NCBI RefSeq assembly: GCF_000802205.1
Contig: NZ_CP012850.1
Span: 2,542,001-2,606,000 of the forward strand
DNA from: Candidatus Nitrosocosmicus oleophilus
Lineage (GTDB): Archaea > Thermoproteota > Nitrososphaeria > Nitrososphaerales > Nitrososphaeraceae
Reading direction: 5' to 3'
Length of the DNA: 64,000 nt
The stretch's first letter is position 1. Every line of letters starts with the position of its first letter. This document shows positions 8,645 to 54,781 of the stretch, one piece after another. A program made the position numbers and the translations under genes. The notes under the pieces are model-generated. The model saw only the letters and a program-made list of their open reading frames with translations, was not told the DNA's origin and did no database searches.

Positions 8645-9241
8645 TTGTCAAAATTGAAATCAACTCAAGATCTTAAGCATGATCACATTACCATAAGAAG
8701 AATTAAAGATGTCGCTTTGACATGCTCAAAGAAACTATACGAGGCTAAATATGTTCCTATAGAAGATATAGAAATTATTTCAGTAGTAATTGAGGAATTT
8801 GTTGATCATTTTCACCATGGGAAAGAAGAAACTGCCTACTTTCCTGAAACTAAAGTAAATAGTGAATTTTCAGAAGAAATACGCAAATTTCTGATTGAGC
8901 ATGAGTTTGGAAGAAGAATAGCCATCATGCTCAGGAGAGCAGTAAATGAATGGAAATCGAAAATCAAAGAGGTCGATAATAATGAAGAACAAAGGATACT
9001 TCTCGTAGAACCTATTGCAAGATTCTTGAAAGCATACGCCATTTTTATCGATGACCATACTGGAAAAGAAGATAACTTCTTTGATAGTGTTGAAGAAGGT
9101 AAGATTATATCCGAGAGTGAAGACGAATGGCTGTTAAAGCATTACGAATCATGCATGAATCAAGTAGGCGGGAAAATAAGGATTGAACAAATGATTAAGT
9201 TAATAAATTATCTTGAGACTAGAGAATGGATGAAGGATTGA
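8645..9241 (+). CDS. Hemerythrin-like (HHE) domain protein
   Basis: 198 residues, all-helical. Candidate diiron ligands follow the HHE pattern: KHDH near residue 12, HFHHGKEE around 57-63, EHEFGRR around 86 and DDHTGKEDNFF around 137-146. Such proteins bind O2 or NO or buffer iron. The start is TTG at 8645 because the HDH motif needs the N-terminal helix and no ATG precedes it in frame. A link to NO or oxygen sensing in an ammonia oxidiser is plausible but only inferred. Confidence 0.85.
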   Translation: MSKLKSTQDLKHDHITIRRIKDVALTCSKKLYEAKYVPIEDIEIISVVIEEFVDHFHHGKEETAYFPETKVNSEFSEEIRKFLIEHEFGRRIAIMLRRAVNEWKSKIKEVDNNEEQRILLVEPIARFLKAYAIFIDDHTGKEDNFFDSVEEGKIISESEDEWLLKHYESCMNQVGGKIRIEQMIKLINYLETREWMKD

Positions 9242-9480
9242 TGCTGTTTACTCGAGAACTCTAGTTTAGGAAGAAAGCAGAAATCAAGATTTCGTAGCTA
9301 GGGATCAACTTTGAGACCCTAAAATTGATTTCAATATAAAAGGATGACAATTCCAGTCACTCTTATCCGGGATTTCGTTTTTTCTAATTTAATCCCATAT
9401 AAAAGCAGGGCTAAGATCTTCCCACCTCATAAAGTATAAAAAGAAGGAATAGTTTTGTCTGAATTCATAAAAAATGATTA

Positions 9481-31522: not shown

Positions 31523-31972
31523 TTAACTCGCAAATCCAAATAGCGAATTGAATCTTTCAATATCACTAGGTTCGGAATTCTCGGTGGAGGATTGCGCATC
31601 AGAATTATCGGTGGAGGATTGCGCATCAGAATTATCGGTGGAGGATTGCGCATCAGAATTATCGGTGGAGGATTGCGCATCAGAATTATGAATAAACACT
31701 TCGTTGTAGCATGTAGTTACCTCATGTTTAGTTGGTTCTTTTTCAAAATATGGATCTGCTTCAACACCTTTACTCTCGTCTATTTTTTCATCAATACAAT
31801 CATAAAATCCTGGAAGGCCCTTATCTAGAGTAGCATTTCCTGTTTGAATTGGTATCAAATCTACTGCCTGACCAAATGAAACATTTCCGTGGACAAAAGT
31901 CGTCGACAGCATTATGTTAAAAGTTACGTAAAGTAGTGAAAAGATTAACGAATTTTTCAACTCATTTTTCAT
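31523..31972 (-). CDS. Secreted protein with NSDAQSSTD repeats
   Basis: 149 residues. A signal peptide of about 30 residues (hydrophobic SLIFSLLYVTFNIMLSTTF) is followed by a domain with Cys in GFYDCIDEK and VTTCYNEVF, likely one disulphide, then four copies of the nine-residue unit NSDAQSST(D/E), then a short acidic tail. The design matches the other secreted repeat proteins in the window. The ligand and partner are unknown. Confidence 0.75.
   Translation of the reverse strand: MKNELKNSLIFSLLYVTFNIMLSTTFVHGNVSFGQAVDLIPIQTGNATLDKGLPGFYDCIDEKIDESKGVEADPYFEKEPTKHEVTTCYNEVFIHNSDAQSSTDNSDAQSSTDNSDAQSSTDNSDAQSSTENSEPSDIERFNSLFGFAS
31575..31682. repeat. 27-bp tandem repeat, four copies
   Basis: Four 27-base units GAATT(C/A)TCGGTGGAGG..., nearly identical, encode nine residues each on the minus strand. 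In-frame, so copy number can change without frameshift. Confidence 0.93.
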
Positions 31973-44206: not shown

Positions 44207-45203
44207 TGCTTTGTTGCATAATTCCTTATTCTCCGGTTATCATCATGATCATCATGTTATATTCTTCTAAAAATGTTATACAATGATACTTTTATCATGA
44301 TCTCCTTTACCATGTTTTGAAACCTGTTTGCTGATGTGTATTCACCAAACATTCTCTTTATAGCTGAGAACACAGTTTCAGATATCCATCTCTGTCCGTA
44401 TTTTCTTTTTGTCTTCCATTTCAACAGATCCTTTGCTTGTAACTTTACTTCGTTGTTCCTTAACCTATTGTTTTTAGGAGAAACAATAGAGTTCCTTCTT
44501 ACCTTTATACCTGGATTGATCTTTTTGTCCTCAAGATACACAAAGTTTGGATTTGAATCATAGGCTCCATCAGCTAGTACCGATTTTATCTTTACAGTGT
44601 TTGGTTCTCTCGAATCCAAAACATGATTGACTAGTTTCTTTAGCATTTTCCCATCATGTACCTTCTCATCTGTCACTTCCAAAGCAATGATTTTCCTGGT
44701 CTTTATGTCTACAGCAACGTGGATCTTGAGATATCCTTTTCTATTTTGTGTATTCCATTTCTCATCCATCTACTGACCTCTGTTAGTAATCTTGATACCT
44801 GTACTGTCTATTGATATTATTAGGTCATCATCGTCATCCATCTTGTCTCTTTTAATATCGATGTTTAGCTTGTTGATTCGTTTACAGATGTGACCATAAC
44901 TTGGTGGATTAGCAGGTAACCTTTTTCCTGTGGCCTTAATTATACCTTGGGTTTGTCTGTATGGTAGGTGAAATAAATAGCGAATGTAACCAATGGCCAA
45001 GATGAAAGAATCTGGAAATACAAATGGTTTACCCTTTTTGTTTATATTCATATTCTCTATCTCTGAACCCCAACCATCAAGGAAATCATACGAGAAGAGG
45101 ATCTCACCGCGTTGAACTAATGAGCGATTGTAAGAGGGCCAGTCTATCACAAATAATCAATCTGTTCATTCCAGCTAAATATGTTGAGTTAGGCGACAAA
45201 GCA
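44207..45203. mobile_element. IS5-family (IS903-like) insertion sequence, copy 2
   Basis: Same 997-bp element as 14171-15167, same orientation, with its own 9-bp duplication TGTAATATC. The only difference noticed is C to T at 44770, which makes a stop codon in the transposase. Near identity means the transposition was recent. Confidence 0.93.
44257..45150 (-). pseudogene. IS5-family transposase with nonsense mutation
   Basis: Identical to the 14221-15114 transposase except that the Trp codon after NRGQ (residue 127) is TAG. All later sequence, including the DDE Asp and Glu, is intact. It should be inactive unless the copy 1 enzyme acts in trans on its ends. Confidence 0.93.
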
Positions 45204-52432: not shown

Positions 52433-53221
52433 CTAATACGGTGCTTTCCCAACGGAGTTGCCAGTGGGACTGTAATGGCATACTAAATAGTCATTGACAC
52501 TGGCTGACGCTACACCACAACCGACCTGTTTTGTGTCCTTCCATACCATCTGCGTGTAATGACCTACCATAGGTGCATTCTCCTCTGTCAATACGCCACC
52601 ATGCCAATTCTCCTTTTCGACGGCCCAACTCTCGACCATTTTGGTCAAAGTATCTAGGTTCCCTGGAGAATTCCCATGGCTCTGCCCAGCTATGTTCTCG
52701 CCATATGAAAAGTCGTCCGAGTGGACCATTTGATCGATCGTCGCCATATGTTCGGCCCAAGTCTGGGCGCTGGCGGCGAGGCTATCACTCCAGGTTAGTG
52801 GTGGAACTCCAACGTCAGCACGGTCGCGGTTATGGATCCCCAAGATAGTGTTGACGATATCCGCTGCATTTCCGGTATTGTTACTCAACGTAGATTCAGT
52901 GGGGATAGAGGGATTATTTTCCGAAATTGTCGTTGATAAATCAGCATTATTATCAGTAGACCCGCTATCTGATGCGTCACTATTATCAGTAGACCCGCTA
53001 TCTGATGCGTCACTATTATCAGTAGACCCGCTATCTGATGCGTCACTATTATCAGTAGACCCGCTATCTGATGCGTCACTATTATCAGTAGACCCGCTAT
53101 CTGATGCGTCACTATTATCATCGGGGTTAGTCCTGGCCCCACTAGCATACATGATTGCTGAAGTAGGTAAAACCATTGAAATCATGATTAAGAATATCAA
53201 TGAAATACTTATTTGATTCAT
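52433..53221 (-). CDS. Secreted CAP/SCP-domain protein with NSDASDSGSTD repeats
   Basis: About 262 residues from ATG 53221 (MNQISISLIFLIMISMVLPT), set by a TATA box about 25 bases upstream; the frame opens 18 codons earlier. A signal peptide is followed by five 11-residue repeats, a Thr/Ser linker, and a CAP domain of about 140 residues: HNRDRADVGVPPLTWSDSLA, WAEHMATIDQMVHS, YGENIAG, then GHYTQMVWKDTKQVGCG and YLVCHYSPTGN. The CAP His/Glu pocket residues are present. The domain DNA is clearly richer in G+C than its surroundings. CAP proteins bind lipids or peptides in the envelope. Confidence 0.93.
   Translation of the reverse strand: MNQISISLIFLIMISMVLPTSAIMYASGARTNPDDNSDASDSGSTDNSDASDSGSTDNSDASDSGSTDNSDASDSGSTDNSDASDSGSTDNNADLSTTISENNPSIPTESTLSNNTGNAADIVNTILGIHNRDRADVGVPPLTWSDSLAASAQTWAEHMATIDQMVHSDDFSYGENIAGQSHGNSPGNLDTLTKMVESWAVEKENWHGGVLTEENAPMVGHYTQMVWKDTKQVGCGVASASVNDYLVCHYSPTGNSVGKAPY
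52949..53113. repeat. 33-bp tandem repeat, five copies
   Basis: Five identical 33-base units beginning ATTATCAGTAGACCCGCTAT, each coding 11 residues on the minus strand. Confidence 0.95.
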
Positions 53222-53240
53222 TGTTGCCACTGCCTTGACA

Positions 53241-53252
53241 TTATATATAAAG
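53241..53252 (-). promoter_or_regulatory. TATA box for the CAP-domain gene
   Basis: CTTTATATATAA on the minus strand, about 20-30 bases before ATG 53221. Confidence 0.55.
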
Positions 53253-53599
53253 CCATTGTTACATGAAAAGGCCAAAGTATAAAATTCTAAATGTATGAAA
53301 ATTTGAGTTTTCTTATCAATACCTTATCAAGTAATTAATTCAATTGATTTTGACTATCTTGATAGTCCCATTTTAGAGATTTGGTCAAAGTGTTAGCTTA
53401 AGATGAGGCTATAGTTACTATGATGATGGAGGATGATCCACAAGAAAGTAATACAATTTTGGACCAAATATTTAGTTCATTAAAAATGTCTAGATTTAAA
53501 ATAAGGTTCAAGTAATAATGATCAAGATTTACTAATTTGTGACTTACTATTACAGGGGTTATTGTTTTTTTAAATGTAACAGCTTGTCTTCTTGAGTAA
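53253..53599. other. Region beyond the integrase relic
   Basis: The frame of the integrase relic continues open to 53398, but no longer matches integrase after the att-like site. AT-rich, otherwise empty. Confidence 0.35.
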
Positions 53600-53623
53600 G
53601 GCGCCGGTGGAGGGATTTGAACC
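53600..53623 (-). other. Candidate att scar: tRNA 3'-end-like sequence
   Basis: Read on the minus strand, the 24 bases give a T-loop (GGTTCAAATCC) followed by CTCCACCGGCGCC, the layout of a tRNA 3' end for a tRNA beginning GCCGGTG. The 5' part is absent. It sits exactly where the integrase coding similarity ends. It does not match the 3' end of the tRNA at 54654. Confidence 0.5.
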
Positions 53624-54575
53624 ATTGGTTTATAGTAATGCTGCACAATACCTGTATCGTGTGACACGAATATAGAAATATTTATGGATTTCATGACCTT
53701 TTGAGTTTCAGTTTCAAAGAACTTTCAGAAGCCATCTAACTCTTTGAAACAATATCTATTGCCGCACTTTGTATTTTCCCTTACCCCTTGAACCTTCCAG
53801 ATATCGTTTATCAACATTCTAATTCTATCAACCCCAGACTTCGTTGGATGTTTTGCGAGTCCCAAGTAATTACCGTATCTTTTGCTTTTTATTTGTCATA
53901 AATTACGCATAATCCAAGAATCGTATATTATATTTTCTCCAAATGATTGACGAAAATCCATCCAGTCTTTAATAGCAAGGTACGCTTCATTAGTAATGAA
54001 TGATGCATAATATTTACTGGTCTCGATATCGAGAACTTTAATTCTTACTGCAATGATAGAATCATTAAGAATAATAGGTATTATGTCGCCCCATTTAAGA
54101 TAACTCCAAGATCCGACTCGTCTTCTGGAAGAAATCATAGTTAAAACTATCGGCTCGATTCGTCGATCTGGATACTCTAATAATCTCCTAATTCCTTCTC
54201 GTGTAGGTAGACGGTCAATTGAGCATCGCTTTCTCGAAGTATCCCCTTTTTATATTATCTTCCAGTTGAATACCACTCCATTCATTTCGCAATAAAATTT
54301 TACAGGTTTTAAATAATTCCTAATCATCTCCACAGATATCTCTTCATCCTTGACTCTTTGGTTCTGGATTGTAAAGAATCTTAATAATCCGTTTTCAACA
54401 CAATGTCGCCTATTCTTTTGATTCATTTCATAAAGGGTAATGGATTGGGATTCAATCGAATCACCTTGTATATCAAGGGAATTGAGAAATACTTGTAGAG
54501 TTTTAGGCTATTGACGTTGCGATCCTTTGGCTCGTAGAGCATAAACAAATTTTTGATACGAATTAAATGTTAAAC
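53624..54575 (-). pseudogene. Archaeal tyrosine recombinase (integrase), four in-frame stops
   Basis: One continuous frame on the minus strand codes a thaumarchaeal-type integrase: KFVYALRAKGSQRQ, TAG at 54508-54510, PKTLQVFLNSLDIQ ... RNYLKPVKFYCEMNGVVFNW, TAA at 54250-54252, then RLPTREGIRRLLEYPDRRIE ... SSRRRVGSWSYLKWGDIIPI, TGA at 53896-53898, then LAKHPTKSGVDRI ... ELDGF, a TGA where Arg is expected, KFFETETQKVM, VSHDTGI and HYYKP. His and the nucleophile Tyr survive; the HxxR Arg is lost. No frameshift was seen. It lies beside a tRNA gene as integrases of mobile elements do. Confidence 0.82.
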
Positions 54576-54653
54576 TTGAATAGAAATATATCGAAGTTGA
54601 AATCATCCTTGCATCTACGATAGCCTGGGCCTTAAAAAAGAAGAGATCTCAAA

Positions 54654-54727
54654 TGGGCCCAAGGGGGTTTGAACCCCTGACCTACCGGTTATGAGCCGGT
54701 CGCTCTACCAGGCTAAGCTATGGGCCC
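54654..54727 (-). tRNA. tRNA with CAU anticodon (Met elongator or Ile2)
   Basis: 74 nt. Acceptor GGGCCCA pairs with TGGGCCC, discriminator A, no encoded CCA. D-arm TAGCTTAGCCTGGTAGAGC, anticodon arm ACCGG-CTCATAA-CCGGT, T-arm AGGGG-TTCAAAC-CCCCT. The anticodon stem lacks the three G-C pairs of initiator tRNA, so it is elongator Met or the lysidine/agmatidine-type Ile-CAU; sequence alone does not settle it. No intron. Its 3' end faces the integrase relic. Confidence 0.95.
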
Positions 54728-54781
54728 ATTCATTTTAGTTTAAAAATGAAATGAGTGTATAAAGGTTTTGTTTATAACTAA

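Follow-up and report, generated by a model that had tools for sequence, protein, structure and literature searches.

The window, that is, the whole 64,000-nt stretch of DNA analysed here, covers positions 2542001-2606000 of the single 3.43-Mb contig of Candidatus Nitrosocosmicus oleophilus (G000); G001-G014 denote genomes of the same genus. Within it, a tRNA-Met(CAU) gene, a broken integrase gene and a short tRNA-like stretch follow one another on the minus strand, with the following features:

54653 to 54728, minus strand: intact tRNA-Met(CAU), supported by ARAGORN and Rfam, by orthologues in relatives and by an occupied site in G024; the putative reconstituted attL of an element A
54625 to 54652, minus strand: element-side spacer TTGAGATCTCTTCTTTTTTAA, then GGCCCAG (54625-54631), as at intact integrase loci and not as at empty tRNA-Met sites
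53626 to 54606, minus strand: tyrosine-recombinase (integrase) pseudogene, recognized by homology and stops, covering roughly residues 1-328 of 410-450
53620 to 53635, minus strand: junction TATAAACCAATGGTTC, at which the Tyr-Lys-Pro codons of the integrase run into the T-arm of a tRNA-Ser-like stretch, with short similarity to both sides
53600 to 53623, minus strand: copy of a tRNA-Ser(GGA) 3′ end, GGTTCAAATCCCTCCACCGGCGCC, with 2 mismatches to the genome's own tRNA-Ser (G000:C1:1841753-1841853), best read as a displaced att-type scar
53570 to 53599, minus strand: 20-30 bp of tRNA-Ser(GGA)-flank-like DNA, resembling the DNA 3′ of this tRNA in the sister species G014 and G012
32057 to 54652, no strand: island of ~22 kb between tRNA-Met and the gene that is found next to tRNA-Met in G005, G007 and G009

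An earlier note on this DNA had described a frame of ~950 bases with four in-frame stops and no frameshift, and this is indeed what we observed. In the minus-strand frame from 54606 downward, stop codons start at 54510, 54252, 53898 and 53727, and a tblastn search with an intact homologue returned a single match, all in one frame, over 326 residues (54% identity, 8e-125). The pseudogene shows extended homology to the tRNA-associated tyrosine-recombinase integrases of thaumarchaea, homologues being present in 62 of 101 genomes, its own included; identity to intact copies is 54-56%, with the best homologue matching at 56% across residues 10-329. Profile searches of Pfam and NCBIfam with the pseudogene itself gave no integrase match, and intact homologues scored below the cut-off against both Phage_integrase (E values of 0.003 and 0.0002) and recomb_XerA_Arch (1e-7).

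The note's further idea, loss by point stops alone, does not hold, since the gene has also lost its 3′ end and part of its catalytic site. Of the R...HxxR...Y set, the Tyr is retained; the HGFRK box reads DGF-stop-K, so that the catalytic His and Arg are missing. Just past the Tyr the frame breaks off, lacking some 75-110 C-terminal residues, which in the intact copies (~410-450 residues long) form a helical-looking tail; a search for this missing C-terminus elsewhere in the window found none. Readthrough or recoding of the stops was considered and rejected, given three stop types and a lost catalytic box. The pseudogene alters 6 of 36 invariant columns, compared with 0-1 in near relatives and up to 6 in distant ones, counts that lend weak support to decay. 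Judged from its sequence, the window integrase is a dead relative of the classical thaumarchaeal tyrosine-recombinase family and cannot work.

Intact related integrases are present elsewhere in the same genome, as is another fossil of the family (L070, G000:C1:2210000-2221500, ~8703-9267), which is frameshifted and truncated and adjoins tRNA-Arg(TCT). A further locus, L113 (G024:C12, 1879-3698), carries an intact integrase; directly after it comes the C-terminal third of another, different one, an arrangement that replacement of an element's left end might produce.

Where was this integrase targeted? The earlier note had correctly placed an intact tRNA-CAU just upstream but set it aside in favour of another tRNA; as regards the target of the integrase, our comparisons contradict this dismissal. 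At intact integrase loci, a tRNA lies 40-100 bp upstream (5′) of the integrase on the same strand, as tRNA-Met does here. The orthologous tRNA-Met of relatives adjoins the same PqqC/TenA-like gene, and at the orthologous site of G024 this pair is joined by an intact integrase and, ~16.5 kb on, by a second tRNA-Met 3′ end. As the DNA beyond that second end carries the same acceptor-end repeat, a tandem element in G024 is possible. In G010, the same tRNA-Met is accompanied by an integrase frame only ~40% identical to that of the window, compared with 85% identity for the neighbouring gene, which argues that the site was occupied more than once. One apparent tRNA-Met copy abutting a truncated integrase, in G013, was set aside because an N, marking an assembly join, lies at the junction.

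The spacer between tRNA and integrase tells the same story. TTTGAGATCTCTTCTTTTTTAAGGCCCAG, the spacer at tRNA-Met, is almost identical to those at tRNA-Arg(TCG), tRNA-Ser(TGA) and tRNA-Arg(TCT), where the nearest integrases are located, and it is absent from the empty tRNA-Met sites of relatives. Its GGCCCAG repeats the last nucleotides of tRNA-Met, and such a repeat of the last ~7 nt of the tRNA, ~29 nt downstream, is a hallmark of the family. In the window, then, the integrase comes immediately 3′ of a tRNA with which it shares the strand, and the acceptor end is repeated on the element side; by these sequence comparisons, the adjacent tRNA-Met(CAU) is the site of the window integrase. This, together with the homology and the stops, bears out the note's view of a fossil integration site. 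Across genus and family, intact, decayed and empty versions of this one tRNA-Met site exist, so that one can read from the locus how, at a single tRNA of a soil ammonia oxidiser, elements repeatedly integrated, were lost and were rearranged.

An element integrated here should have duplicated the tRNA-Met 3′ end. We found no such second end, or attR, at 28-54.8 kb of the window, and the next best place genome-wide (2 of 18 positions mismatched), at a distance of 125 kb on the other side, is not convincing. Element A is therefore a remnant rather than a complete element. Nothing was found in support of the note's suggestion of a defective element held by a helper, as no second end turned up.

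The acceptor-end repeat may be informative beyond this locus. Across 29 loci, the final 7 nt of the tRNA are found again on the element side; in 25 of these loci the offset is 20-24 nt. Shuffling tRNA ends among the loci reached the observed match in 0 of 2000 permutations, a figure that is not a strict probability because the 29 loci are related and not independent. The repeat covaries with the target tRNA (seen at window 54625-54660, L039, L041, L045, L048, L049, L053 and L068-L070, among others), and the Arg(TCG), Ser(TGA), Arg(TCT) and Met(CAU) tRNAs all end in GGGCCC[AG]. The constant-distance repeat is possibly a specificity module of this integrase family. As a bolder and rather doubtful proposal, integrases of the family would recognize the last ~7 nt of the acceptor plus an element-borne copy ~29 nt downstream; an altered copy would switch the target tRNA, and the same relaxed recognition would join unrelated att sites, including those of the window. 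In either form, this is a hypothesis, open to testing, of the way in which thaumarchaeal integrases choose and switch targets; the constant-distance repeat itself was not met with in a non-exhaustive reading of the literature.

The 24 bases at the other end of the pseudogene have a different source. Comparison with the tRNA genes of the genome, as the note had proposed, identified tRNA-Ser(GGA) as the closest by extended match; with its 2 mismatches, the agreement spans 25 of 27 nt and continues several nucleotides past the tRNA end. The note was right that the scar derives from a tRNA other than its neighbour; the start it had predicted for that tRNA, GCCGGTG, is in fact GCCGGGG. The tRNA-Ser(GGA) gene lies 754 kb from the scar, and its conserved 3′ end throughout the genus is CTCTCCCGGC. 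That the resemblance is chance or convergence we regard as hardly credible: GGTTCAAATCCC is indeed common to many tRNAs, but a match to one locus that extends beyond the tRNA is not expected by chance, and a reversed control pattern gave 0 matches at up to 3 mismatches. In addition, a search of the 3.43 Mb gave a single occurrence of the scar's 17-nt heart. The junction sequence also matched near 2416649 (L023), but that place lies upstream of a tRNA and the match was put down to chance.

Additional, partial copies of the tRNA-Ser(GGA) 3′ end in G004, G007, G010, G005 and G006 mark it as a favourite integration site. In the window's own genome, what comes after tRNA-Ser is the left end of an element from a different family (element B), together with a fragment of its integrase, and the DNA beyond the scar does not resemble this element end. 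Instead, the 20 nt beyond the scar match the tRNA-Ser flank of G014 at 15 of 20 positions, equalled by 0 of 2000 random stretches, and that of G012 at 11 of 20 (random fraction 0.0015). This flank may be host DNA or may belong to the end of a further element, and the genes to the right of the scar were not found beside tRNA-Ser in relatives. A similar displaced and partial tRNA-Ser(GGA) 3′ end exists in G005 (L173, G005:C1:1914000-1926500), 610 kb from its tRNA-Ser, where ~800 bp past the Ser copy a partial tRNA-Arg(TCG) 3′ end precedes an intact integrase of the window's family. Other integrase loci with only a partial tRNA 3′ end upstream are L190, L193, L195, L202, L204 and L205.

Could the scar nevertheless be the att of the integrase's own element, with tRNA-Met lying next to it by accident? 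We consider this very unlikely. As the note had observed, recognizable similarity to integrases stops right beside the tRNA-like bases, at 53626 and thus 2 nt short of them, and the att sites of thaumarchaeal elements are mostly <26 bp (PMC6563490). The gene does not naturally end there, however: intact relatives extend past 53600, continuing for 75-110 residues beyond 53626, without any tRNA-like end, an outcome that the note itself had listed as contradicting its reading. Moreover, in these relatives the tRNA is on the 5′ side of the integrase, the spacer with its repeat stands at tRNA-Met, and in G024 and G010 it is the orthologous tRNA-Met that harbours intact-frame integrases. The scar, then, is not the integrase's own att and is best read, on this sequence evidence, as a displaced piece of a tRNA-Ser(GGA) integration site. 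Combining a scar that consists of a tRNA-Ser(GGA) end and a sister-species flank with an integrase whose site is tRNA-Met, we conclude that the left edge of the ~22-kb island is a place where two integration sites have been joined.

We propose the following history, which as a whole we consider probable. Element A, whose integrase belongs to the common XerC/D-like family of thaumarchaea, integrated into the 3′ end of tRNA-Met(CAU) in a Nitrosocosmicus ancestor; comparison with other loci shows that the tRNA was restored at attL and that the integrase gene came to lie immediately after it, on the same strand. The integrase then died, with four nonsense codons, loss of the HxxR box and loss of the last 75-110 codons. 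At the sequence level, its 3′ truncation is the junction with DNA of the second site, tRNA-Ser(GGA), contributing the tRNA 3′ end and a little flank; that site was occupied in the window lineage as well, by element B. The joining itself may have been illegitimate recombination at a short shared CCAA.GG, between the Pro-Lys codons of the integrase and the right end or core of the Ser att.

Microhomology joining of the two sites is our best guess. A ACCAAAGG-like sequence is found near the junction both in the integrase codons past the catalytic Tyr and at the right ends of tRNA-Ser elements; before the core, right ends of element B read CCAAAGG in G004 and CCCAAAGG in G007. The stretch shared at the junction is short, at 6-9 bp, and ordinary integrase sequence accounts for it equally well, without any right end of B. 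Short too, at 20-30 bp, is the flank resemblance by which the scar is assigned to the Ser site. Also speaking against the proposed history are the missing attR of element A and the genes beyond the scar, which in relatives do not adjoin tRNA-Ser.

Two other routes to the same junction are improbable, and to a similar degree. In one, a second element, specific for tRNA-Ser, would have entered the integrase gene through a pseudo-att, and most of it would have been deleted afterwards. The CCAAAGG-like sequence of the integrase does resemble what precedes the core at B right ends; yet such an event should leave the left end of B after the core, which at the genome's own tRNA-Ser reads TTAAATGTGGGTTC, whereas the scar is followed by TTACTCAAGAAGACAA, as in G014 and G012, and no C-terminal integrase half exists elsewhere in the window. 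The other is a chromosomal inversion between integrated A and B, joining the left end of A to the right end of B with its attR, for which TKV2/TKV3 of Thermococcus kodakarensis offer a precedent (PMC8371274). The order tRNA-Met, integrase of A, short B-like end, Ser att, Ser flank is indeed the product predicted. A single inversion, however, does not predict that tRNA-Ser and tRNA-Met lie on the same strand, nor the gene order on the far side of the island. That is, in G005, G007 and G009, the orthologue of window 31523-31972 lies within 0.5-1.1 kb of tRNA-Met with further genes in the window's order; in the window, ~22 kb intervene (54652 to about 32057) and the same genes then still follow in order.

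In kind, the locus is ordinary: a decayed member of the known tRNA-targeting elements of thaumarchaea, mostly a fossil, though one that hints usefully at the way in which such elements choose their tRNA targets. Elements with tRNA 3′-end targets and short att sites have been described in these archaea (PMC6563490). It is likewise on record that related archaeal integrases switch targets and that integrated elements rearrange with one another (PMC8371274). With the elements of Krupovic et al. 2019 (PMC6563490; XerC/D-like integrases, arCOG01245/arCOG01242, labels that belong to the published elements) the window shares the tRNA 3′-end target, the short att, the position of the integrase at one end by the tRNA and a classical unsplit integrase; it differs in retaining only a broken integrase, in having lost the right end and in being joined to the site of a different tRNA. 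The in-frame tRNA-like stretch with which the integrase frame ends recalls the suicidal archaeal integrases of the SSV1 and pTN3 types (PMC8371274). In contrast to these, the window's intact relatives have att 5′ of a gene that integration leaves unsplit and no 3′ tRNA-like stretch, and the tRNA-like end in the window derives from another site. As in the TKV2/TKV3 rearrangement cited there, att halves of different integrated elements are joined; unlike in that case, no reciprocal junction was found for the window, and gene order speaks against a simple inversion.

The genes of the island, named by eye from their translations rather than by profile search, encode a CAP-domain protein, flavin reductase-like, ArsA-like, NHL-repeat, channel, SDR and patatin-like proteins and a broken transposase, and they are scattered among relatives. 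The CAP-domain protein (52433-53275) is secreted and carries tandem SDASDSGSTDN repeats; similar repeat-rich secreted proteins adjoin tRNA-Met in G007 and G010. The transposase, at 44257-45150, is IS5-like and lies in two frames.
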